A DNA stretch of 64,000 nt from Cognatishimia maritima. Lineage in GTDB: Bacteria; Pseudomonadota; Alphaproteobacteria; Rhodobacterales; Rhodobacteraceae. The translations under genes were made by a program, and so were the position numbers. Positions 14,914-26,165 of this stretch are shown here, piece after piece (within the stretch, counting starts at the first letter, position 1; each line of letters opens with the position of its first letter). The stretch spans positions 554,079 to 618,078 of the forward strand of contig NZ_FQWM01000002.1 in the NCBI RefSeq assembly GCF_900129685.1. The letters run 5' to 3'. The notes beneath the pieces were generated by a model. It saw only the letters and a program-made list of their open reading frames with translations, ran no database searches and was not told where the DNA came from.

Positions 14914-16395
14914 ATGCTCTGGTCCCTCACAAAAATCGTCATTTTTGTCGCCGCCATCGCAGGGCTGACCCTCGGTGCGGAATATCTTCTGGAAAGCGAA
15001 GGCGGGGTGATGATCACCGTCGCCGGTGTCGAGTACACGCTGACCCCGTTCATGTCCGCTGTTGCGCTTGTCGTTCTGGTGATTGTGCTGTGGCTGCTGC
15101 TGAAATTGGCCTCGCTGACAGTAGCGTTTCTTAAGTTCCTGAACGGCGATGAAACCGCGCTGTCGCGGTATTTCAATCGCAACCGCGAACGCAAAGGCTA
15201 CAAGGCCCTGACCGAAGGCATGATGGCGCTAGCGTCTGGAGAGGCGCGCGTCGCCATGGAGAGGGCGCGTAAAGCAGAGCGTCTGTTGCGCAAGCCCGAA
15301 CTGACCAACCTGATCACCGCACAGGCGGCAGAGATTTCCGGGGACCGCCGCAAAGCCGAAGAGGTCTACAAGCGCCTGTTGGCCGATGACACGACCCGGT
15401 TTGTCGGCGTGCGTGGGTTGATGAAGCAAAAGCTGGAAGAGGGCAAAACCGATGTCGCCCTTAAGCTGGCGGAAACGGCCTTTGCCTTGAAGCCCAAACA
15501 TGTGGAAACGCAGGACACATTGCTGAAACTTCAAGCCGGTGAAAAGGATTGGTCCGGCGCGCGTGAGACGCTGAAAACCAAGTTGAAACACGGCGGACTT
15601 CCGCGCGATGTGCATCGCCGCCGCGATGCTGTGCTGGCGCTGTCAGAGGCGAAAGATCTGATTGGTCAGGATTCCACAATTGAAATGCGCGAGGCCGCGA
15701 TTGAGGCCAATCGACTGTCCCCTGATCTGATCCCGGCAGCCGTGATGGCCGCCAAAGGCTACCTGAGTGAGGGCAAGAAGAAACACGCCGCGCGTATTCT
15801 AAAAAAATCGTGGGAGGCGCAACCCCATCCCGATCTGGCCGCAGCCTTTGCCGCAATTGAACCTGCGGAATCTCCAACAGAGCGGATCAAGCGTTTCACA
15901 GCCCTGGTGAAAACCACACCCGACCATACAGAGACAAAGATGTTGCTGGCAGAACTGCACATCGCGGCAGAGGACTTCCCTGGCGCGCGCCGCGCCTTGG
16001 ATGATCTGGCAGAGACCGCTCCAACGGCGCGCAGCCTAACCATTATGGCGGCGATTGCCCGTGGAGAAGGCGCTGAGGATGCTGTGATTAAGGGCTGGCT
16101 GGCCAAGGCGCTAACCGCGCCGCGTGGCCCGCAGTGGGTCTGTGACAGTTGCCACAATATCCACTCTGAATGGGTGCCGGTCTGTGAAAACTGCCAGAGC
16201 TTTGACACGCTCAGCTGGAAAACGCCGCCCGCCTCTGAATCCGTCAGTTCGACCGGGGTTGAGATGCTGCCGCTGATCGTCGGCCAGCTGACAACTGAAA
16301 ACGTGGCAGACGCTGCAAGTGATGACGAACCCGACGCAGAACCCGCGCCTGACCCGACGGTCGCGGCGACCGCTGAGGCCGCACCAACCACCTAA
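14914..16395 (+). CDS. hemY: HemY-like TPR membrane protein
   Basis: 493 residues. Two membrane helices (about 5-20 and 43-67) precede the HemY N-terminal signature FFNRNRER-type segment (YFNRNRERKGYKALTEGMMALASGEA) and a series of tetratricopeptide repeats up to about residue 395. The C-terminus adds a likely zinc ribbon, CDSCHNIHSEWVPVCENC (two CxxC pairs), then an acidic Ala/Pro-rich tail. HemY of this type is tied to heme synthesis by genetics and location, but is not the protoporphyrinogen oxidase of the same name. Ten bp separate it from the mitofilin gene. Confidence 0.9.
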   Translation: MLWSLTKIVIFVAAIAGLTLGAEYLLESEGGVMITVAGVEYTLTPFMSAVALVVLVIVLWLLLKLASLTVAFLKFLNGDETALSRYFNRNRERKGYKALTEGMMALASGEARVAMERARKAERLLRKPELTNLITAQAAEISGDRRKAEEVYKRLLADDTTRFVGVRGLMKQKLEEGKTDVALKLAETAFALKPKHVETQDTLLKLQAGEKDWSGARETLKTKLKHGGLPRDVHRRRDAVLALSEAKDLIGQDSTIEMREAAIEANRLSPDLIPAAVMAAKGYLSEGKKKHAARILKKSWEAQPHPDLAAAFAAIEPAESPTERIKRFTALVKTTPDHTETKMLLAELHIAAEDFPGARRALDDLAETAPTARSLTIMAAIARGEGAEDAVIKGWLAKALTAPRGPQWVCDSCHNIHSEWVPVCENCQSFDTLSWKTPPASESVSSTGVEMLPLIVGQLTTENVADAASDDEPDAEPAPDPTVAATAEAAPTT

Positions 16396-16402
16396 ATTTG
16401 CG

Positions 16403-16425
16403 GCCCCAATTCAATGAATTGGGGC
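16403..16425 (+). terminator. Intrinsic terminator after hemY
   Basis: Stem GCCCCAATT / AATTGGGGC (9 bp, one more C-G possible) with a 5-base loop, 8 bp after the stop. A TTCCCCATTTC tail follows, T-poor. Confidence 0.75.
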
Positions 16426-16472
16426 TTCCCCATTTCTCAGCAGAGTGATATTCACCCCGCCATCACCAGATC

Positions 16473-16511
16473 GCCTCAATAGCTCAGCTGGTAGAGCAGG
16501 TCCTTCGTAAG
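16473..16511 (+). pseudogene. 5' half of a split tRNA-Thr(CGT) gene
   Basis: Thirty-nine bases, starting GCCTCAATAGCTCAGCTGG and ending CCTTCGTAAG, are a perfect tRNA 5' half: acceptor strand GCCTCAA, D arm, and the anticodon arm up to the CGT loop. The next bases (TAGCGGGTCC) do not complete the anticodon stem. The missing 3' half, with acceptor strand TTGAGGC and CCA, is at 26121-26165. Joining the two at the shared core gives a 76-base tRNA. Confidence 0.9.
16504..16511 (+). repeat. attL core of the integrated element
   Basis: TTCGTAAG, the anticodon loop and first stem base of the split tRNA, identical to 26121-26128. The flanks differ on the element side (TAGCGGG here) and agree with tRNA sequence on the host side, so crossover lies within these 8 bases. 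Confidence 0.85.
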
Positions 16512-16571
16512 TAGCGGGTCCGTCCGCAATTGACGTTTGAGACCAGAGGGTTAGAGAAGCCGCACAGTAAT

Positions 16572-16591
16572 TAGTAGGGCCATAGTAGGGC
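16572..16591 (+). repeat. Two direct copies of TAGTAGGGC (left-end arm-type sites)
   Basis: Copies at 16572-16580 and 16583-16591, spaced 11 bp start to start. The same 9-mer occurs three times in the same orientation near the right end (25946-25988), twice with the same 11-bp spacing. Such end-specific direct repeats are expected for arm-type binding sites of a tyrosine integrase or its accessory protein. Confidence 0.7.
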
Positions 16592-16609
16592 CGCAGAAAG
16601 AAATAGTTT

Positions 16610-16685
16610 GCCGCATTAGCTCAGCTGGTAGAGCAATCGCTTCGTAAGCGATGGGTCGGGGGTTCAAGTCCCTCATGCGGCACCA
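16610..16685 (+). tRNA. tRNA-Thr (anticodon CGT), complete, element-borne
   Basis: Seventy-six bases with encoded CCA. Acceptor GCCGCAT / ATGCGGC (7 bp), D arm GCTC/GAGC, anticodon stem ATCGC / GCGAT around loop TTCGTAA (CGT), T arm GGGGG / CCCTC with loop TTCAAGT. It lies 98 bp inside the left end of the element and decodes the same codon (ACG) as the split host gene, but differs in the acceptor and anticodon stems, so it is not a simple duplicate. Confidence 0.95.
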
Positions 16686-16696
16686 CTCTTTCCAAA

Positions 16697-16909
16697 CTAT
16701 TCTTCTAACTCCAATAGCTTAGATGGTTTAACGCCCAGCGCATCGGCCAGCTTTGCGATGATGAGGACCGTGGGGTTTCTTACTCCGCGCTCGACACCGC
16801 TGATATAGGTGCGGTGAAGGTCAGCCTCGAACGCAAGCTGCTCCTGAGAGAAGCCTTTGGCCTCCCGATGGTGCTTAACGTTTTTTCCTACGACCGCATT
16901 GATGTCCAT
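16697..16909 (-). CDS. XRE-family DNA-binding regulator
   Basis: 70 residues, nearly all helix-turn-helix: VGKNVKHHREAKGFSQEQLAFEADLHR with recognition helix TYISGVERGVRNPT and C-terminal IIAKLADALGVKPSKLLELEE. The size and layout match controller (C) proteins of restriction-modification systems as well as phage-type repressors. A perfect inverted repeat AGACT-ATG-AGTCT lies 37-49 bp upstream of its start, a likely operator. The element's methyltransferase and nuclease are 6-9 kb away, so a link to them is inference. Confidence 0.88.
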   Translation of the reverse strand: MDINAVVGKNVKHHREAKGFSQEQLAFEADLHRTYISGVERGVRNPTVLIIAKLADALGVKPSKLLELEE

Positions 16910-16945
16910 GCGTGCATAGCGCGGATTTGCAGCCTATTGATCTAC

Positions 16946-16958
16946 AGACTATGAGTCT
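16946..16958. promoter_or_regulatory. Inverted repeat AGACT-ATG-AGTCT, candidate operator of the XRE regulator
   Basis: Perfect 5-bp arms with a 3-base centre, between the XRE gene and the divergent membrane protein gene. The core GACT-N3-AGTC is the form of C-boxes bound by restriction-modification controller proteins. It could regulate both divergent genes. Confidence 0.5.
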
Positions 16959-17027
16959 CATTTTCGTTGTCACCAGATTCGGGATGTGCTGAACTTGACA
17001 CCAAACGGATTGAAAGCAGGTGAAAAT

Positions 17028-18095
17028 GTGATTTCACAGATTTTAAGATTCATAATTGCGTCAGTTGAAATCGGCGTAATGTTTGTTGTCTTGACGCTTG
17101 TTCTTATAGCGTCGAAATTTGCGGCGTATGTCGCAGCGCTAGCAATCTGCTTCCTTGGCCTTGTTGCAGCGGTTACTGGGCGGAGGGTTCCGAGATTACG
17201 CGGGCGCATCAAAGGCATTTCTGTTTTTATTGTTGCGGGAGTTTTTGCTTTCATAGCTTGGCAAGCTCATCATATCGAACAACGCGAAACTCGATGGGCG
17301 GAACTCAGGAAAACTGCTCCCGATACCTATTTGGAGGAACTACAAGCCATCGACCAAGATCGTTGGCTTGAAGAATTGAGTGAACTTCGGCCTGAACGCT
17401 ATGCCGAGGAGACCGAACGGCGCGAAGCTGAACTGCAAGCCCAGCGTGAGGCCGAAGCCGCAGAAACTGCTCTCAGCGCCGATGCGGAGGTGGCCGTGCA
17501 AGTGGTAACTGAGGCCCCAGCTTCGGCGACAGCACAACGATTGATTGCAAGTTCAGATGACCTCGATGAAAATCGCGCGGTCTTTGGCCGTGTTGCGAAC
17601 GAACTAGTTACAAACGGAACATGCACAGAAGCTGAATTTATCGCAAACGGCGGTTGGCTGCGTTCGACAACATTTGAGCCAAGGCCGGTCTATTTCATGT
17701 ATTGTGGCGGCTCTACCGTGGCGGACCGTCTGTATTTGGATGCGGCTACAGGGAAGGTGTTCCGAGGAACCGATGGGCTGGAAATCTCTCGACCTGACGG
17801 GAATGGGTCAGAGCAGGCAGTCGAGCGTTTAGCCCAATGCGAAAATCATGAAGCAGAGGCCTACGTTATGATCAAGGCAGATGTGCGTCGGGTTTTGATT
17901 GCGCCTTCCACTGCAAGGTTTCCTTGGCGTTTCGACGCTGGGACCGGCCATCTGGGCGATTGCTTGTATCGTGTGAACGGGCATTTTGATGCCCAGAACG
18001 GCTTCGGTGCAATGCTGCGAAGTACATTTACCGGCACGATTCGATATTTCCCACAAAGCGGAAGCTGGCAGACCCAATCCCTTAGCATAAACTAG
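17028..18095 (+). CDS. Membrane protein of unknown function on the element
   Basis: 355 residues from the GTG at 17028; a GTG at 16986 would add 14 residues. Three hydrophobic segments lie in the first 80 residues (around FIIASVEIGVMFVVLTLVLI, YVAALAICFLGLVAAVTG, ISVFIVAGVFAFIAW). A charged, probably coiled-coil stretch follows (Glu/Arg-rich, about 85-155). The C-terminal half has VANELVTNGTCTEAEFIANG and a module with CENHEAEAYVMIKADVRRV, APSTARFPW and NGHFDAQNGFGAMLRSTF, a pattern of small surface or phage-encoded proteins. I cannot assign a function. It is cargo divergent from the XRE regulator. Confidence 0.7.
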   Translation: MISQILRFIIASVEIGVMFVVLTLVLIASKFAAYVAALAICFLGLVAAVTGRRVPRLRGRIKGISVFIVAGVFAFIAWQAHHIEQRETRWAELRKTAPDTYLEELQAIDQDRWLEELSELRPERYAEETERREAELQAQREAEAAETALSADAEVAVQVVTEAPASATAQRLIASSDDLDENRAVFGRVANELVTNGTCTEAEFIANGGWLRSTTFEPRPVYFMYCGGSTVADRLYLDAATGKVFRGTDGLEISRPDGNGSEQAVERLAQCENHEAEAYVMIKADVRRVLIAPSTARFPWRFDAGTGHLGDCLYRVNGHFDAQNGFGAMLRSTFTGTIRYFPQSGSWQTQSLSIN

Positions 18096-18385
18096 GCTGC
18101 GTTGGCGCAACCCAGTGCTAGCACCCTGTAACGGGCCGGAGAGGTCCGAAGGGCGGCGTATAGGCCGTGTTAGGCCCGCCCTTACTACAACCAGCTCAAA
18201 GCACCCAGTGGCCCTACGTAGCGCATAAAATTTTGTGGGCTCTTGTCTATCCCACCCATTTTGTAACTTGTAGCCGTAACTTAGTTTGAAAGGTGCAGAA
18301 AAGTACAGGCTGGGCACCGAAGCACCCCGCCCTATAGTACATGCCTGTTTGGGCTTTATGTTACGTTTCAGGTTGCGCAAGGTGC

Positions 18386-20683
18386 TTAAAACGGTGGTTC
18401 ATCTCTTCTCTCCGTATCAAAAGGCACTATCACGACCAAGCCACTGTCCAAGCGTTGCGCGATGAACTCGGACTTTCGTTCATGCGCGTCGCCGCGCGCA
18501 AACCCCTTTCGTTGAGCCTTTTCTAGCCTACCGAGATCATGGAGACGATGGGTGCCGTAATCCCATCCCAACCCTGCCATGACTGACTTAATCCTCCGGG
18601 CATCCATTGGTGACATGCGGGCGGTGTCGACTCCGAGTAAAAGTTTGATACTGTCCATCGATACCCGACCTTTGGTGTTACCAAATGCATCCTCCAAAAC
18701 ATCTGCGATAGCATCCTCGACCATTCTTTGCCCCTGCACATTAGAAGCCGCAGCCCACAAATGCGGGGATAAGGTTATCGATTCGCCCTTTTCCTCACGC
18801 ACGACCGCCTCTGCCCAGAGCTGATCGACATCAGAACTGAAACCCACCAGATCAATCTTGCAGACGTTTACTGGCCATATTCGACGATTGCCCGTTAGAT
18901 CGCGCAAGTAAGCGATTTCGTTCGTTGTTCCCAAGATGATGCAATGACGGCGAAACTCCGAGGCAGTACGAGCATAGGCAGGGCGAAACATGTCGACGGC
19001 TGTGCTCAAAAACTTCTTCAAGCTCTGGCTTGTCGTCTTGTTCATGCCGTCCAGTTCTTGGCACTCCACAATCCACGAGCGGGTCATCATCTCCGCTTTA
19101 GTTTTGTCATCGCTCTTGAGATCCAGGCTGCCACAGAACCACTCTTCACGGATTGCAAGGCGCTGGGCGATTTGGGATTTGCCTGCCCCCTGCGCACCTT
19201 CGAGTACCAACATCGTATCGAATTTAACACCCGGTTGCTTGATACGGCGCACGCCCGCGATTAGAAGCTTGCTGCCGAATTCCGCGTTCAGCTCATTGTC
19301 TTCAGCGCCGCAATAATCGGCCAACCATTTGTCTATGCGTGGCTTGCCATCCCACACAAGGCCGTCAAGATAGTCCTCGACAGGATGGTACTTCTGCTCA
19401 TGCGCGATAGCGAGTAACTCGCGCTTGATGTACGCGGGGGCTGCTATGAAATCCAAATCGCGCTGGAATGTGCTGGACAGAATTTCCACGATATCCGTTA
19501 GGTCACGTCCATCGAGGCCGTAGCCGCGAAACTCGTCGGTTTGCGTGAAAGTGTTGCGTTGGGCATCCACGCCCAAGACTGTCAGTGCATATCGGATGTT
19601 CTGTGGTGAATTGCGAATGGGTCGACCATCATCATCGCATAGCGGCCAACCGTCGTTGCGCAACTCAATGGTGGACATCGCACGAACCACTTGGCGATGA
19701 GCGTATATGATTGGATTAGGGCTTTCCAGAACATGAGCGCTAATCCCGACATCAGGTGACAAGATTATTGATAATACGTGCCCCGGCTGCATCCCATTGC
19801 CAAGCATCCATATCGTGGCCGCATAAACCAGTTCTGAGCGAGAAGCGTAGGTTTTTCCTTCGGGGTTGTTTCCATTCAGGATTGCTTCGATCCAAACGGG
19901 TTCCGGTGGTAGAATATCCGTTAGTTGATCAGGAAGCTCTAGTGGCTCAACTGCAATCGCAGTCGAACCTACTTCTGTGCCATTCGCGTTGGAATTGTTC
20001 ACCCCCTTAGGTAGCTTCACCCGGAAGTCGCTTAATAAGTAGGTTGTGGGTGGCTTGGTTAGATTCATCGGCTCGAAGTGCCAAGCCAATGCGGGTTCAC
20101 GGCCAGCGGCTCTTTTTTTGTCGTTGAGCCAGTTCATTGTCCAAGGCAAACGAAGCAATCGGTCGGCATTGTGCGTGCCGGGTCCGCCTTGTAAAATATG
20201 CAACAGTGTTTTGTTGAGTTCCTCTGCCTTAGCTATGCTTACGGGCTCTTCTAACTTCCACACGGCCTGACACCCAGCGCCTGTTTCCCAGATCGCCGAT
20301 GGCAAGGGTACACCGACTGGGCGTTTGCTATCATCATGCAGAACACCCCAAACAAAATCTCTCTGTTCGGTTTCTGTGCCAGGGTAGTCTTTATAGTCCA
20401 GATCGACGTGCAAAAAGCGCACACAGGAAAGGTTTGTTTTCTTGCGTGTACCCTCCAAGTACTCGGCATTCGGCAAGAAATACATGTTGCGCTGGGTTTC
20501 GCCCGAGTTGCCAGACGCAACGAAGACCACGGCCTGCTCGTGCTCCGAAGGGCCGAACACTTTTGCCTTAGGAGCCGCCTTGCCTTTGTTCGCCATCGAC
20601 TCAAGATACAGCGACGCCTCAGGGTTCAGCCAGCGTATGAACTCAATGGCGCGGGAGGGATTGGGTTTCAGGTTACCGGCCAT
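18386..20683 (-). CDS. Primase-helicase (RepB-like AEP primase + VapE/D5-type SF3 helicase)
   Basis: 765 residues; the ATG at 20683 has GAAAGGGGG 6-7 bases upstream. The N-terminal primase domain shows the catalytic DxD at Asp94/Asp96 (FLHVDLDYKDY) and the NADRLLRLPWTMN motif around 173-184. The C-terminal virulence-associated-E domain carries Walker A EGAQGAGKS at about 495-503 and GTTNEIAYLRDLTGNRRIWPV sensor motifs. Such proteins prime and unwind replication of phage satellites and plasmid-like integrated elements. Its start overlaps the AlpA-like gene by 11 bp, so the two are coupled. Confidence 0.92.
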   Translation of the reverse strand: MAGNLKPNPSRAIEFIRWLNPEASLYLESMANKGKAAPKAKVFGPSEHEQAVVFVASGNSGETQRNMYFLPNAEYLEGTRKKTNLSCVRFLHVDLDYKDYPGTETEQRDFVWGVLHDDSKRPVGVPLPSAIWETGAGCQAVWKLEEPVSIAKAEELNKTLLHILQGGPGTHNADRLLRLPWTMNWLNDKKRAAGREPALAWHFEPMNLTKPPTTYLLSDFRVKLPKGVNNSNANGTEVGSTAIAVEPLELPDQLTDILPPEPVWIEAILNGNNPEGKTYASRSELVYAATIWMLGNGMQPGHVLSIILSPDVGISAHVLESPNPIIYAHRQVVRAMSTIELRNDGWPLCDDDGRPIRNSPQNIRYALTVLGVDAQRNTFTQTDEFRGYGLDGRDLTDIVEILSSTFQRDLDFIAAPAYIKRELLAIAHEQKYHPVEDYLDGLVWDGKPRIDKWLADYCGAEDNELNAEFGSKLLIAGVRRIKQPGVKFDTMLVLEGAQGAGKSQIAQRLAIREEWFCGSLDLKSDDKTKAEMMTRSWIVECQELDGMNKTTSQSLKKFLSTAVDMFRPAYARTASEFRRHCIILGTTNEIAYLRDLTGNRRIWPVNVCKIDLVGFSSDVDQLWAEAVVREEKGESITLSPHLWAAASNVQGQRMVEDAIADVLEDAFGNTKGRVSMDSIKLLLGVDTARMSPMDARRIKSVMAGLGWDYGTHRLHDLGRLEKAQRKGFARGDAHERKSEFIAQRLDSGLVVIVPFDTERRDEPPF

Positions 20684-20894
20684 CTGCGCCCCCTTTCGGC
20701 TCACACATCATATCGGACAACCAGCTTTCGACATCGGTGCGGCGGTAAAGGATTTTACCAACGCGACCGCCGGTTTTTGAACGAATGAAGCGCGGCCCAT
20801 ACCCGAGGATGCGGCCTTTTTCAAAGTAGCTGGTGCTGAACCCTGTGATCTCGGGAAGCTGCTTGGTGGTTAGAAGTTCTATTTGTTTGGACAT
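20673..20894 (-). CDS. AlpA/MerR-type small DNA-binding protein (excisionase-like)
   Basis: 73 residues, start fixed by AAGGAGGG just upstream of the ATG at 20894. A winged helix-turn-helix reads LLTTKQLPEITGFSTSYFEKGR, followed by IRSKTGGRVGKILYRRTDVESWL, the RxxDVxxWL ending of AlpA and phage excisionases. AlpA-type proteins activate integrase or excision directionality. It overlaps the primase-helicase gene downstream. Confidence 0.88.
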   Translation of the reverse strand: MSKQIELLTTKQLPEITGFSTSYFEKGRILGYGPRFIRSKTGGRVGKILYRRTDVESWLSDMMCEPKGGADGR

Positions 20895-21001
20895 AATGCC
20901 CTCCTTTGCCATCATTAGATGAGGAAGACATTGCGAGTATTTTGACTTAAATTCTTGCGAGCGAAAACATCTTTTGTCCGCAAGACAAAGGCGGTTGGGA
21001 A

Positions 21002-21607
21002 TTATTTTAGTTTGGTTTTGACCCCATGTTTTGCAAGCACCGCACAGATCTTTTCCAAAGCTTGAAATTCCACAGATTCGACAGCACCGTCATGCTCTAC
21101 GGCCATATATTTGAAGGTCATTGCGCTATTGATCTTCGGCCTACTCTTTGACTTCTTATAGTAAGTGCCATTGAATTTCTCTCTCAACCTGTTGGCCATT
21201 CTAATGATGTCTTCTTCATCATAGGCGTGAGGGGCAAATTGCTTTGCCGCTACAAAGGCCAAGGCGTGGGGAGTGCGAACCTTCGGAACATCAGGTGGGT
21301 TTGGAGAGTTGTAGTGCTTGATTTTGTGCATGTCGCGATTGCACTCATCCCGATGAAGTAGTTCCCCCATATAGCGAAGAGCTTTATAATCGGCATCATT
21401 GGTCACTGCATATTTTGACGCGCTCTTCCCCACCAAAGAGTGCATTGCTTTGTTTAAGCGGATAGCATCACTTTCTTCCGATTTGTCATCTGTGTTTGCT
21501 CTAATAATCGCAAGTAACAGCTTTTCTAAAATGTCTGGGTCACATGATAAGCCATAGAACGTTTCTTCTTCGGCTTCGGCATTAGTACTCACTTCTTGGT
21601 CTGTCAT
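21002..21607 (-). CDS. Hypothetical element protein
   Basis: 201 residues from the ATG at 21607; another ATG at 21619 is possible and neither has a good ribosome-binding site. The product is soluble, helical and charged, with an acidic N-terminus (EVSTNAEAEEETFYG) and a lysine-rich patch (FNGTYYKKSKSRPKI). No motif was recognised. It lies between the integrase and AlpA-like genes and runs in the same direction, where small accessory replication or regulatory proteins are common. Confidence 0.65.
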   Translation of the reverse strand: MTDQEVSTNAEAEEETFYGLSCDPDILEKLLLAIIRANTDDKSEESDAIRLNKAMHSLVGKSASKYAVTNDADYKALRYMGELLHRDECNRDMHKIKHYNSPNPPDVPKVRTPHALAFVAAKQFAPHAYDEEDIIRMANRLREKFNGTYYKKSKSRPKINSAMTFKYMAVEHDGAVESVEFQALEKICAVLAKHGVKTKLK

Positions 21608-21820
21608 TTGGCAACCCATCTAGTAAACAACTCGGTCGACGTGCGATTAGCGCACGCGCACGCGCGAAAGCGCAAATGCAAGATAACCCAATTAATACTT
21701 CACTACATTGGCAGCGTTTTTTGTAGAGAGTTGAACAGCACTCGTGGATTCGATCTGAACCGGCGGCGTGAAGCACGCTCTCAACCTGAGTGCCGTCGAT
21801 AGGGTGGGGTCACTCGAGAG

Positions 21821-22987
21821 TCAGTCGCGTGGCTCTTTCAGTTCTAAGATGCGTTTAGCCACCAGTTCGACTGGCTCCCGCAGACGCTCGGCATTCACCA
21901 CAATGTAGCCACCCGTTACATCTCCATTGGTGCGGTGGTTCAGTAGACGCTTAAGCGCGTAGTAGGGCACGTCGAGGCTCTCGGCGATTGTAATGAAGGT
22001 GCGCCGCAGGTCGTGCAGGGTGAAGCTGACACCAGAACCAGCTGACACGCGCAGGAGAAATTTCTTGGTTTCGACCAGATGACCGGTGCGCCCCGGCCCC
22101 GGGAACACCCAAGGGGAGCCTTGGTTCGCCTCGCGACGTTGGGCCAACAGGTCGGCAAGAAACTCGGACAGAGGGAGGGTCAGCGGGTCGCCGTTCTTGG
22201 TGGTCGGCAGGTGAAGTGTCTTGGCCGAGAGGTCCACGTTCTCCCAGCGCAGTTGCATCACTTCGCTGCGGCGCATGCCTGTGAACAGAGCAGTCAGCAG
22301 GAAGTCCCGAGAATAATCGGGTTCCGCCATGACTGCCGTCCACCATGCGGGCAGATCAACAGCGGTCACAACGGTTTGACGGCGGCGCTCTTTGAACCAC
22401 GCCCGCGCTTGGGTCAGGATTTGCACCGGATTGGGCGGGAAATCGTTCTGCGTCGCAGAGGTGAAATTATAGACTGAACGAAAGTGGCGCATCACGTTGT
22501 TGCCGGTGGTTTCGCCGTGTATCTTACCAATCTCCTGATGCTTCTTAAGCACCATCTGGCGGTCGATTTCCTTCATCTCCTTCTTGCGCCAAGCTTTTAG
22601 ATAAAGCTGTGCCGACCGGCGGTAGTTGCTGATCGTGTGGGGCGACAGAGTCTTGCGGGCCTCGAAGAAACGGTCAAAGGCCATTTCCACGGTGACCCGT
22701 TCCCGCTTCTCTTTGCGTTTCTCTGCATTAGGGTCGCGCCCTTCGGCCATCTCGCCCAGAATGACCAACGCCTTCTTGCGGGCGATCTCGGGAGCGAACA
22801 CGTCGGCCCGGCCAATCGTGACCCGCCGTGTGCGCCGGTTCACCTGCCCTTCGGCGAAGAACACCTTGGAGTTGGCTCCAACCCGCAGCCCGAAACCAGA
22901 CAGCATGGTGTCGCGATAGAAAACCTGACCACTGGCGGGATATGGAACTTCATCGACCGCGCGGCGCGTAAGACGTAGACTTGGCAT
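21821..22987 (-). CDS. Tyrosine-type integrase (P4-like, DUF4102 arm-binding domain)
   Basis: 388 residues; AAGGAGGG sits 5 bases before the ATG at 22987. The N-terminal domain (YRDTMLSGFGLRVGANSKVFFAEG) is the DUF4102 arm-type DNA-binding module, followed by a core-binding region with TLSPHTISNYRRSAQLYL. Catalytic residues are Arg239 (TGMRRSE), Lys264, His325/Arg328 (LHDLRRTF), His351 and Tyr361 (VTGGYIV). It should integrate and excise the element at the tRNA-Thr anticodon loop. Its central position, about 5 kb from either end, is unusual for this family. Confidence 0.95.
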   Translation of the reverse strand: MPSLRLTRRAVDEVPYPASGQVFYRDTMLSGFGLRVGANSKVFFAEGQVNRRTRRVTIGRADVFAPEIARKKALVILGEMAEGRDPNAEKRKEKRERVTVEMAFDRFFEARKTLSPHTISNYRRSAQLYLKAWRKKEMKEIDRQMVLKKHQEIGKIHGETTGNNVMRHFRSVYNFTSATQNDFPPNPVQILTQARAWFKERRRQTVVTAVDLPAWWTAVMAEPDYSRDFLLTALFTGMRRSEVMQLRWENVDLSAKTLHLPTTKNGDPLTLPLSEFLADLLAQRREANQGSPWVFPGPGRTGHLVETKKFLLRVSAGSGVSFTLHDLRRTFITIAESLDVPYYALKRLLNHRTNGDVTGGYIVVNAERLREPVELVAKRILELKEPRD

Positions 22988-23446
22988 TGTGACCCTCCTT
23001 CTGGCCACAAATCATTATAAGCACATCCAGAGAAAAAGCTCGACTTTTCAGATGATTATGATGCACTTTCCTGCACATGGAAACATGTTGGCATTAAATC
23101 AAAGACTGGCGTGCACATTTTTTACTGATCACAGAAATCGCTTTCGAGTAGACAAAAATAGTCTCATGGCGTGGATAACTTCCGTGAACTTGGCTCGCGG
23201 ATAGGAAAACAAATCGATGTTAGCACGAGAGCAGCCTAATCGGCCTCGATGGCTTCACTCGACAATGCTCAGGCTAGGGAGATTTGAGTGGTCAAGAAGT
23301 TATCACCTGATCAAAGGAAAAATATCCGCACTGCTGTGAAAGCGGTCGATTGCAGTATCTAGCGACCTGAGGTACCAAGGGCTCTACATATGGGGGCACC
23401 CACTTAGTAGGTGAATGCTACTTTACAACCAGACAAGGTAGACAGA
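22988..23446. other. Intergenic region between integrase and methyltransferase
   Basis: About 460 bp without a convincing gene. It separates two divergent genes and should hold both promoters. At 23406-23422 the bases AGTAG and CTACT form an inverted repeat 25 bp before the methyltransferase start, a possible operator. The left 9 bases (TTAGTAGGT) partly match the element's end repeats. Confidence 0.45.
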
Positions 23447-24679
23447 ATGAACAAGGAAGCCATGCGAGATCTATTTGGTGCACAAACTGAGCCATGGCGG
23501 AACTATAAGCCGATTGTTACTCGGGTCGATGACGAGCCTAACTCATGTATTTGGGATATCCCCTATACAATCCCGCAGCTTGGATACCTGACTCATAACC
23601 ACTTCCGTTACTATGGAAAGTTCCCGTCTGTCGTTGCTGGCCAAATACTTGATGATTTACCACCGGCCTCCCCAAACGATTATGCATTAGATAACTTTTG
23701 CGGCTCGGGCACTACCCTAGTGGAGGCGCGTTTACGCGGGATCAACGCATTCGGAGTCGATGTCAGCTGGCTGAGTGCCCTCGCTTCAAATACTAAAGTC
23801 GCAGAGATCGATCTTAAACTTGCACGGGAAATCTCAGAGCGTGTTCTCGCGGCAGGACAAAGCGTAGATGCTATCGAGCTATTACAGGACAAGTATCGCG
23901 AAAAATGGTGGCCACAGCAAACAGCCAGAGTGCTTACTGCGTTCCAAGATGCCCTGTTGCGAGAAACTGATTCTCCGGAAAAAGATTTCTGTCTTACCGC
24001 GTACTTAGCTATTATTCGGCGTGTGTCCTACGCCTACGATGGCGAAGTTCGGCCACATTTCAACAAAGACAAGACTCCGCGAGAACCCTTGGCCGCGCTA
24101 TCCAAGAAGATCAATGACATGATCGGGCGACACCGTGAGTTTCTCGATGCTTGCGAAAAACCATCCATCGTTTCGTGCATTGTTTCCGACAACAAAGAAA
24201 TACCGCGAGATGAGCTGCCCTCCGGGGACTGTTATTTGGTTATTTCCCATCCACCTTACCTAAACAGCTTCGACTATAGCCCAGTCTACGGACAGGAATA
24301 CTATTGGTCCAAGCCATTTCGAGCATTAGATGATGATAAAACCCGGCGAGCTGCGGAACTGAAGGCATGGCCTGCGAAAGACAAGCTGGTGGAAGACTAT
24401 TACGCTGGCCTATCCGATTGTTACCGCGAAGCTTATCGCATTCTTAGACCGGGGGGGCATCTAGCCGTGGTCATCGGCGATTGCACGATACAGAAGAAAC
24501 TCGAACCAGTGCTCGACAAATGTGTAGATTTGATCGAAGCGATTGGCTTCCGTACCGAGAAAGTCAATTACCGAACTACGCACTATGGCCTTGGGAAATA
24601 TGCCTATAGCCACCGAGCGGATTACCATGGCGAAGCAGTCAAGCGGGATGCCATTATTTACTTTTCAAAAAGTAGTTAG
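23447..24679 (+). CDS. DNA methyltransferase (N4-cytosine/N6-adenine type)
   Basis: 410 residues from the ATG at 23447 (AAGGT 8 bases upstream); a GTG at 23411 is an alternative. The SAM-binding motif I, DNFCGSGTTLVEA, is at about 82-94 and the catalytic motif IV is SHPPY at 267-271 within ISHPPYLNSFDYS; RILRPGGHLAVVIGD follows. The PPY motif is that of amino-methyltransferases; the preceding His instead of Ser/Asp is unusual. The nuclease gene converges and overlaps by 4 bp at the stop codons, so this is probably the modification half of a type II-like system. Target unknown. Confidence 0.88.
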   Translation: MNKEAMRDLFGAQTEPWRNYKPIVTRVDDEPNSCIWDIPYTIPQLGYLTHNHFRYYGKFPSVVAGQILDDLPPASPNDYALDNFCGSGTTLVEARLRGINAFGVDVSWLSALASNTKVAEIDLKLAREISERVLAAGQSVDAIELLQDKYREKWWPQQTARVLTAFQDALLRETDSPEKDFCLTAYLAIIRRVSYAYDGEVRPHFNKDKTPREPLAALSKKINDMIGRHREFLDACEKPSIVSCIVSDNKEIPRDELPSGDCYLVISHPPYLNSFDYSPVYGQEYYWSKPFRALDDDKTRRAAELKAWPAKDKLVEDYYAGLSDCYREAYRILRPGGHLAVVIGDCTIQKKLEPVLDKCVDLIEAIGFRTEKVNYRTTHYGLGKYAYSHRADYHGEAVKRDAIIYFSKSS

Positions 24680-25761
24680 TCTACGATGACAGAGCCATTT
24701 CCATATCGAATAGTTTGTTCTTTTCCGGTGTCGAGATCGGTAAAGATTTTCAAATCAAAATGGTTGACTATTTCCTTACACAATTGAGTCACTGCGAGGT
24801 CCGTACCTAGCTTTTCTTTTGTAATCTGCTCAAGAAAACTGTCACCAAATGCCTGTTCGAATTTCTCAAACGCAAAAACAATGATCTCATCACGAACGAC
24901 AAGGTTGTGGTCTATACAAGCTCGCACCATGTTTCTGCTCTTTTCCTCCCAGTGGGAGATTTCCGTCATAACCAGAACACTCACCAGGTCACTTTCATTG
25001 TCACGCTTGTCGAATTGACCGAACCTGCCCTTTCTTAGATCAAGCGCAACAAATGACGCCTGCTTCGCTTTTTCGGGGGTTTGTGGTCCGGTTAGGCAAT
25101 CGTTCAATAGTGCAACAACGCCATCTTCATTGATCGACATTATCTCAAGAATCTTGCTTGCGCCAACACTTGGCTTAATCTCTCGTAAGCTCTGGTTGTT
25201 ATTCAGAAAAAACGGTTCTGCATCTACCGTGAGCCCGAAAATGAAACGATGCTCGTTTTCTAGGGCTGCGTTCAAAATTGTTTTGCCGTTTTGACTGACA
25301 GAAATTCCTGGTTCGGGCTCGCTGGAAAATACCACGCTGAAATCAACCCTTTCTGCGGCCCAACGAGGGTTCATTGAAAAATTGATGTTTTTCCCATAGG
25401 CAACGTGGTTTTTTCCTTGACCAAAATTCCGTTTAAACGTTCCGTTTACTGTTTGCTCTACGCCAACCTTTTTGCATTCAATAAATGCCAGCAATTGATC
25501 GATGGGTGGTAGTTCACCGTTCCCAGGATGCTCGTTATACACTGCAAATTCAACCTTATGACCTGCACCCGAAAATCCCTCCAATTTTGGTTCGATAACC
25601 AGTTTTGACCAGATCTCGGGGTCTTCTTTCATTGCTGCCATAGTCAATACTTCAAGCATGTCACCTATCTTGCGGCCAATTTGATGACCTTTTCGGCGGT
25701 AGTGAGAAATGTACTTAAAAATGTCTGAAATGTACGTTCCTGGGCAGGCGTTCGAATTCAT
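24676..25761 (-). CDS. Putative PD-(D/E)XK restriction endonuclease
   Basis: 361 residues from the ATG at 25761; the frame is open to 25905 but the extra N-terminus looks non-conserved. An acidic strand (KVEFAVYN, Glu71), IDQLLAF and then IECKK (Glu95-Cys-Lys97) fit a PD-(D/E)XK nuclease core, with an upstream helix carrying KIGDMLEVLTMAAM. The remaining 250 residues are not recognised. Its convergent overlap with a DNA methyltransferase is the main reason to call it a restriction enzyme; the family cannot be named by eye. Confidence 0.65.
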   Translation of the reverse strand: MNSNACPGTYISDIFKYISHYRRKGHQIGRKIGDMLEVLTMAAMKEDPEIWSKLVIEPKLEGFSGAGHKVEFAVYNEHPGNGELPPIDQLLAFIECKKVGVEQTVNGTFKRNFGQGKNHVAYGKNINFSMNPRWAAERVDFSVVFSSEPEPGISVSQNGKTILNAALENEHRFIFGLTVDAEPFFLNNNQSLREIKPSVGASKILEIMSINEDGVVALLNDCLTGPQTPEKAKQASFVALDLRKGRFGQFDKRDNESDLVSVLVMTEISHWEEKSRNMVRACIDHNLVVRDEIIVFAFEKFEQAFGDSFLEQITKEKLGTDLAVTQLCKEIVNHFDLKIFTDLDTGKEQTIRYGNGSVIVD

Positions 25762-26120
25762 TTTTGGGATCCTTTGGGTGATCCGTGAAGCATAGGCACG
25801 CCACCCTGCGGTGTCGAGCTGTAGTTCAAACCATCCGGACCAATAGAGGAAGAAGCTAGCACCAAAATCCTGCCTCGAAGGAACACTGGGTATGGCCTCG
25901 CCCAAGAGTAAGCTGCTTAGAAACCCATGGCGGGGAGGGGTCTACTAGTAGGGCACTACTTTTGCGACTAGTAGGGCATTAGTAGGGCGTGTTCGTCAAA
26001 CGTTCTGAAAGGCTGTGCAAGAGCATCAAAAATCGAGGCCTTAATTAGTCAAGCAATCGTAAGGTGTTATGCGACGGCATATGTCTCGATCCGGTTCTTT
26101 CCAATAACTCGACGCCAAAA
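25762..26120. other. Right-end intergenic region of the element
   Basis: Holds the leftward nuclease promoter, with an inverted repeat GGATC-N8-GATCC at 25767-25784, and the three TAGTAGGGC repeats of the element's right end. No gene seen. Confidence 0.5.
25946..25988 (+). repeat. Three direct copies of TAGTAGGGC (right-end arm-type sites)
   Basis: Copies at 25946-25954, 25969-25977 and 25980-25988, same strand and sequence as the two copies at the left end. The last two repeat the 11-bp spacing found at the left. They lie 133-175 bp inside the right core. Confidence 0.7.
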
Positions 26121-26165
26121 TTCGTAAGGACAAGGTCGGGGGTTCGAGTCCCTCTTGAGGCACCA
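26121..26165 (+). pseudogene. 3' half of the split tRNA-Thr(CGT) with attR core
   Basis: Begins with the core TTCGTAAG (26121-26128) and continues GACAAGGTCGGGGGTTCGAG, then the T-arm 3' strand, acceptor TTGAGGC, discriminator A and CCA. The acceptor strand pairs perfectly with GCCTCAA at 16473-16479. The upstream bases (GACGCCAAAA) do not supply a 5' half, so neither junction rebuilds the host tRNA. Confidence 0.9.

Follow-up and report, generated by a model that had tools for sequence, protein, structure and literature searches.

How can a bacterium keep a transfer RNA (tRNA) in service when a mobile element has split its gene and rebuilt it at neither end? The question is raised by a 64,000-nucleotide stretch of Cognatishimia maritima DNA (NCBI RefSeq assembly GCF_900129685.1, contig NZ_FQWM01000002.1, positions 554,079 to 618,078; hereafter the window), in which a 9.6-kb island lies inside a gene for tRNA-Thr(CGT) and splits it at the anticodon loop. 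We conclude that the integrase of the island very probably inserted it there and that a tRNA-Thr(CGT) carried by the island is predicted to take over, which would leave one working copy with or without the island. The features of the split, in window coordinates, are:

16473..16503, + strand: 5' half of the split host tRNA-Thr(CGT), its first 31 bases; called by ARAGORN only once rejoined with the 3' half
16504..16510, + strand: left copy of the 7-bp core TTCGTAA (attL); the same 7 bases stand at left and right ends family-wide
16511..16609, + strand: island left end, from core to carried tRNA, 99 bp, read from the sequence
16572-16581 and 16583-16592, + strand: two direct repeats TAGTAGGGCC in the left end, likely integrase arm sites
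16610..16685, + strand: complete carried tRNA-Thr(CGT) (ARAGORN), likely the replacement for the split gene
21821..23008, - strand: tyrosine integrase with arm-binding domain (Pfam Phage_integrase E=7e-15, Arm-DNA-bind_3 E=2e-10; PHROG integrase E=1e-52)
25946..25989, + strand: three direct repeats TAGTAGGGC near the right end (starts 25946, 25969, 25980), likely arm sites
26121..26127, + strand: right copy of the core TTCGTAA (attR), read from the sequence
26128..26165, + strand: 3' half of the split host tRNA-Thr(CGT), through CCA; 7/7 pairs with the host 5' half, 5/7 with the carried tRNA

Rejoined, the two halves are called as tRNA-Thr(CGT) by ARAGORN and pair at 7/7 positions of the acceptor stem and 4/5 of the anticodon stem; neither window junction is called alone. 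A first-pass annotation of the window, made from the letters only, had described both states correctly, but it had the halves joining at an 8-bp core. The family core is the 7-bp TTCGTAA and coincides exactly with the anticodon loop; an eighth base is shared by the two window ends but not in, for example, loci L075, L080 and L095, and we rejected the longer core as a family trait. The same annotation had placed inside the left end a full tRNA that shares the anticodon but not the acceptor and anticodon stems. This tRNA is confirmed, at a gap of 99 bp from the core, and is identical to the rejoined host tRNA at 59/73 positions, the differences including both of those stems. A search of the genome with up to 3 mismatches found no other intact tRNA-Thr(CGT), so that the carried copy is the sole intact one detected. 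The direct repeats TAGTAGGGC, with two copies at the left end and three near the right end, fit the expectation for integrase arm sites.

In the mechanism that we propose, the tyrosine integrase would act on core and arm sites and insert the island at the anticodon loop, thereby disrupting the host tRNA-Thr(CGT) gene. The carried tRNA follows on the same strand after about 90-100 bp, so that the promoter of the broken gene would probably drive its expression by read-through; the cost of insertion would thereby be removed.

The layout recurs widely in the integrase family. An integrase alignment was used to scan genome contigs, and of the 172 relatives detected the 80 best were taken as loci. 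An orphan 5' half followed by a complete tRNA was found for 54/80: in 40 the complete tRNA has the same anticodon, 2 further loci have an orphan half and a complete tRNA for other anticodons, and 12 were added via their genomes (11 genomes, one with two integrase loci). Six of the 80 are canonical, with the tRNA rebuilt, and 20 are neither or could not be judged (19 with a missing end, plus L120). The proposal of the first-pass annotation that a substitute tRNA compensates for the split gene thus gains support from the family, in which the carried anticodon is that of the split gene. The layout can also be found from the left end. Its leading signature, TTCGTAAGTAGCGGGTC, is present in 10/394 family genomes and is followed by a complete tRNA-Thr(CGT) in 8 of these 10 loci, the other two ending with their contigs; G007, outside the 394-genome sample, has the same layout with a different tRNA pair. 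In an independent draw, 11/292 genomes of the order have a close integrase. The related islands are 7-16 kb long, occur in Alphaproteobacteria and contain no recognised phage structural genes. The left-end signature has 0 matches in viral contigs; compared with phage and plasmid records, the integrase has no phage match that reaches 60% identity, and one plasmid record falls in the 60-80% band.

For the quality of tRNAs and junctions we scored 58 cases (40 of the 80 loci, one of them doubled, the window, L013, L025-L028 and 11 genome loci), 56 for CGT and 2 for GGT. ARAGORN called all 58 carried tRNAs and all 21 rejoined host tRNAs, and none of the 58 left or 21 right junctions. Core and carried tRNA lie 86-99 bp apart in 55/56 CGT cases and 130 bp apart in one; in the GGT cases the distance is 108 and 110 bp. 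Among 29 distinct carried CGT tRNAs the stems pair at 203/203 (acceptor), 145/145 (T) and 140/145 (anticodon) positions, with many different base pairs at the variable ones. The far-end 3' half pairs at 7/7 positions with the host 5' half in 20/21 two-ended islands (6/7 in L111); of the 12 islands with unlike host and carried acceptors, 10 have a 3' half that fits the host half better, and the other 2 show a tie. In 55/58 left ends GGTC stands at the tRNA position after the core; a lost 3' half may have left it there, or the integrase site may constrain it.

Natural target switches match what replacement predicts, in that the carried anticodon tracks the split one for four targets: CGT (56 cases), GGT (L105, L106), TGT (L152) and CAT (L130). 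In L105 and L106 a tRNA-Thr(GGT) is split and a tRNA-Thr(GGT) carried, with CGT-type remains also nearby, and L107 has a GGT 3' half. In L152 a tRNA-Thr(TGT) is both split and carried; this locus had been a candidate for the canonical class, which was rejected for the whole-tRNA class on account of the orphan half upstream. In L130 the split tRNA is a CAT one and ARAGORN names the carried one Met. From the layout, we infer that the attachment (att) site of each switched island belongs to the integrase by which it was located. Beside the integrase of L106 (9818-9892) there is also a GCCTCAA-type tRNA-Thr(CGT), its first base changed and one base short, which is likely decaying.

The carried tRNAs themselves become landing sites, as the first-pass annotation had supposed for the window copy. 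The 160 bp before each split half were compared with known island left ends, and 8/61 halves have a match (L027, L054, L080, L090, L091, L119, L182, L186). By coordinate reading all eight relics are in register with the tRNA start, and mononucleotide shuffles gave 1/305 matches, out of register. One of 12 controls also matched in register: L011 (G013), which had been taken as element-free with an intact tRNA-Thr(CGT). Because this relic lies in register upstream of an intact tRNA, the resident tRNA of L011 may, to judge by its sequence context, be a former island-carried one. In L091 two orphan halves, each with an island left end after it, are stacked before a complete tRNA; in L054 the older half has decayed. 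No relic precedes the window's own split tRNA. Islands in L076, L119 and L178, however, carry a tRNA of this type (GCCTCAA), and in L078 the split 5' half is of the window's carried type. In G266 a left end and carried tRNA are followed by chromosomal-type genes (alkyl sulfatase, enolase); the family integrase is absent, a strict pattern finds no further tRNA-Thr(CGT) half, and the locus is likely a scar with a domesticated tRNA.

Resident tRNA genes can thus be exchanged stepwise for island-borne ones. Each island would break the resident tRNA and supply a working copy from beside its att site, the supplied copy would serve as the landing site for the next island, and when an island decays its tRNA would remain as the resident gene. 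We lean slightly towards the view that, in many Alphaproteobacteria, tRNA-Thr(CGT) is by this relay a mobile gene of the defence-island family, the identity of the locus being set by serial island capture and not by vertical descent. In G155 an intact tRNA on one contig and a split left junction on another share the same 125 bp, ending with the core, as would arise from sequencing a mixed culture of both states.

The eight relics, and L091 with its two stacked left ends above all, also favour a different emphasis: the carried tRNA would serve chiefly as a landing pad for later family islands, with translation a secondary role. For a landing pad, however, a bare core with stem sequences would do, yet 58/58 carried copies are complete tRNAs with pairing stems, and carried anticodons switch together with the target. 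We consider this emphasis improbable and retain replacement of the split gene as the likely function of the carried tRNA.

Between the carried tRNA and the right core lie about 9.4 kb of genes, with the integrase gene in the middle of the island and not at its end. Besides the integrase, the genes are:

16697..16909, - strand: small helix-turn-helix (HTH) regulator (Pfam HTH_3; PADLOC Control_protein E=2e-21; tblastn match in 25/80 loci)
16986..18095, + strand: protein of unknown function with a hydrophobic N-terminal part (no Pfam match; tblastn match in 14/80 loci)
18386..20704, - strand: VapE-like primase/helicase (Pfam VapE-like_dom E=1.8e-68; PHROGs DNA helicase/primase; tblastn match in 26/80 loci)
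20673..20915, - strand: small AlpA/excisionase-like protein, a weak label (phrog_66 excisionase and transcriptional regulator E=0.0016; tblastn match in 43/80 loci)
21002..21619, - strand: backbone protein of unknown function (no Pfam match; tblastn match in 15/80 loci)
23411..24679, + strand: DNA methyltransferase, cargo, likely of a type II restriction-modification (R-M) system (Pfam N6_N4_Mtase; PADLOC MTase_II E=3e-104)
24676..25905, - strand: likely type II restriction enzyme, cargo (PADLOC REase_II E=2e-80; no Pfam match)

The cargo of the window is thus a type II R-M pair by PADLOC, and defence genes are common in the family. We sampled 20 proteins from 12 islands, with open reading frames picked by length and codon score and PADLOC matches accepted up to E=1e-20. 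Defence families were found in 8/12 islands (L084, L093, L100, L102, L104, L111, L124, L127) and in none of the sampled proteins of L079, L086, L089 and L095. By Pfam, L051 has a NaeI-type enzyme with a cytosine methylase and L052 a type I R-M system.

Cargo so rich in defence would suit a carried tRNA that serves expression of island genes or resists anticodon nucleases, its match to the target being a by-product of capture; a role of phage tRNAs against tRNA cleavage by the host has been proposed (discussed in PMC10865867). We regard this as very improbable. It does not predict a single tRNA, at a near-fixed distance from the split and always with the anticodon of the target. Moreover, carried and rejoined host tRNA do not differ at any of 73 positions in L080, L087, L095 and L104, so that by sequence the carried one could have no special nuclease resistance there.

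The left flank of the site allows a comparison within the genus:

14914..16395, + strand: hemY, outside the island (Pfam HemY_N E=1e-23)

This gene is the conserved left neighbour of the tRNA-Thr(CGT) site, and hemY-region DNA matches with a nearby tRNA-Thr(CGT) occur in relatives. The tRNA-Thr(CGT) pattern is found in 5/9 genus genomes, once in G001, G003 and G004 and twice in G000 and G007. In the congeners G003 and G004, which are element-free, a single tRNA-Thr(CGT) gene follows the hemY match instead of both tRNAs; two resident tRNAs are therefore not the ancestral state at the hemY site there. That a tRNA-less island struck the first of two tandem resident tRNA-Thr(CGT) genes is scarcely credible and was rejected on this single gene: although the two tRNA sequences of the window lie 99 bp apart on the same strand, the second stands between the halves of the first, behind the likely arm sites, and the distance is near-constant in dozens of genera.

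Several points weigh against replacement as we propose it. No promoter- or terminator-like sites were found at 16300-16800, and read-through is neither supported nor excluded. In 4/9 genus genomes (G002, G005, G006, G008) there is no tRNA-Thr(CGT) match, those at 3 mismatches carrying other anticodons. Some members of the genus seem to have lost this tRNA, and it is therefore likely dispensable in the genus, which weakens a strict need here; the suggestion of the first-pass annotation that losing the carried tRNA may not be neutral is weakened with it, and such loss may be tolerated. For 12 of the 54 loci the layout was placed in the same genome as the integrase, not traced to it nucleotide by nucleotide. 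L120 combines a family integrase with a single intact tRNA, and its genome shows no orphan half. Finally, 7/11 genomes with the left-end signature have no family integrase, which may reflect decay, scars or incomplete assemblies. For L026, L028, L029, L030 and L013 none was found elsewhere in the assemblies (G397, G375, G342, G252 and G007), and the contigs of these five stop inside or just past the island left end.

The six canonical loci (L129, L131, L139, L140, L146, L149) are beta- or gammaproteobacterial and have an intact tRNA at one end and a 3'-half copy beside the integrase. No orphan 5' half was found within 500 bp before the intact tRNA in any of them; an upstream D-arm in L131 belongs to a complete tRNA-Lys. 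In a tree of 78 integrases (55 whole-tRNA rows, 6 tRNA-restoring rows, 17 unassigned), one branch separates the 55 from the 6, with support 100/99 and presence in 200/200 bootstrap trees, and 0/500 shuffles gave a separation of the strategies as low. The tree has flagged long branches and an arbitrary root, and therefore does not give the direction of change between the strategies.

By analogy, the mechanism is likely whole-tRNA replacement as in the tRNA-dependent lysogeny of actinobacteriophages (Guerrero-Bustamante and Hatfull 2024, PMC10865867), here in small alphaproteobacterial islands of defence type. In the accessible part of that study, the need for the phage tRNA is shown by deletion and arm-type sites are proposed (PMC10865867). 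As in those phages, there is a tyrosine integrase with attB inside a tRNA gene, the 7-bp core is too short for any junction to rebuild the tRNA (attL 0/58, attR 0/21), and the element carries a complete one (58/58 by ARAGORN; also L130 and L152). In contrast to a temperate phage, the window island encodes no structural, packaging or lysis family among its eight predicted proteins searched against PHROGs and Pfam; we therefore describe it as working like lysogeny and do not file it as lysogeny. Unlike in the actinophages, the tRNA is immediately next to the left att site, with little variation in distance, the targets are Thr-CGT, Thr-GGT, Thr-TGT and CAT tRNAs, and carried tRNAs are reused as targets. 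For the actinophages more than one origin is proposed, while here one branch divides both strategies within an integrase family; as far as its accessible text goes, that study left open the spread beyond actinophages and the relation to canonical tRNA restoring (PMC10865867).

A further published case is found in Sinorhizobium meliloti, where, in the part of the report available, the tRNA of phage-related sequences replaces an inactivated host tRNA-Leu(UAG) (PMC11476347). These elements, like the islands here, are alphaproteobacterial and replace an inactivated tRNA gene by an element-borne isoacceptor, but they are two prophages related to Mesorhizobium phage Lo5R7ANS and involve another tRNA (PMC11476347). 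In canonical islands the tRNA is restored by a fragment that attP supplies, as the text on Islander describes, and those of the anticodon-loop class share the tyrosine integrase and the crossover at the anticodon loop (PMC4383910). In contrast to canonical tRNA-gene islands, neither end of the window island is a tRNA. Tools such as Islander search for a tRNA with its cognate fragment, and may therefore miss or misplace islands of the present kind.

Phage-inducible chromosomal islands (PICI) and P4-like satellites are small elements with an integrase, AlpA-like and VapE-like genes and defence cargo. The window island is likewise small, with a clear integrase and VapE and with defence cargo; its AlpA label is weak (E=0.0016). 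It differs in that no packaging or capsid-remodelling gene was recognised by Pfam and PHROGs among its eight proteins, two of which have no family match, in its mid-island integrase, and in that no helper is known.

The window thus leads to a large alphaproteobacterial island family that uses whole-tRNA replacement and carries antiviral cargo. Sister integrases in the same family still rebuild the tRNA, natural target switches have taken the carried tRNA with them, and tRNA gene turnover by mobile DNA becomes directly testable. In the literature that we covered, which includes few subscription papers, no report of an alphaproteobacterial island family of this kind or of the reuse of carried tRNAs as targets was found. 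The relics showing carried tRNAs as landing sites and the single branch between whole-tRNA and tRNA-restoring members go beyond that literature.

The control-protein-like HTH gene of the window starts 11 bp beyond the carried tRNA. Left ends of islands with different cargo have it too (e.g. L080, L095, L097, L124), which makes a role as backbone regulator more likely than control of the R-M pair. Three loci stand out by their arrangement or origin. L096, on a contig labelled Nostoc favosum, holds an alphaproteobacterial-type island, possibly by contamination of the assembly. L113 and L126 lie on one contig (OY288160.1), their closely related integrases separated by about 15 kb; 3' halves occur between the two integrases and beyond them, and the islands are likely stacked. 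The genome of L057 has, near a contig end (G360:C16:273656-273700), another right end of ggacggcaaaa type together with a 3' half of tRNA-Thr(CGT), possibly from a second island adjoining the first.

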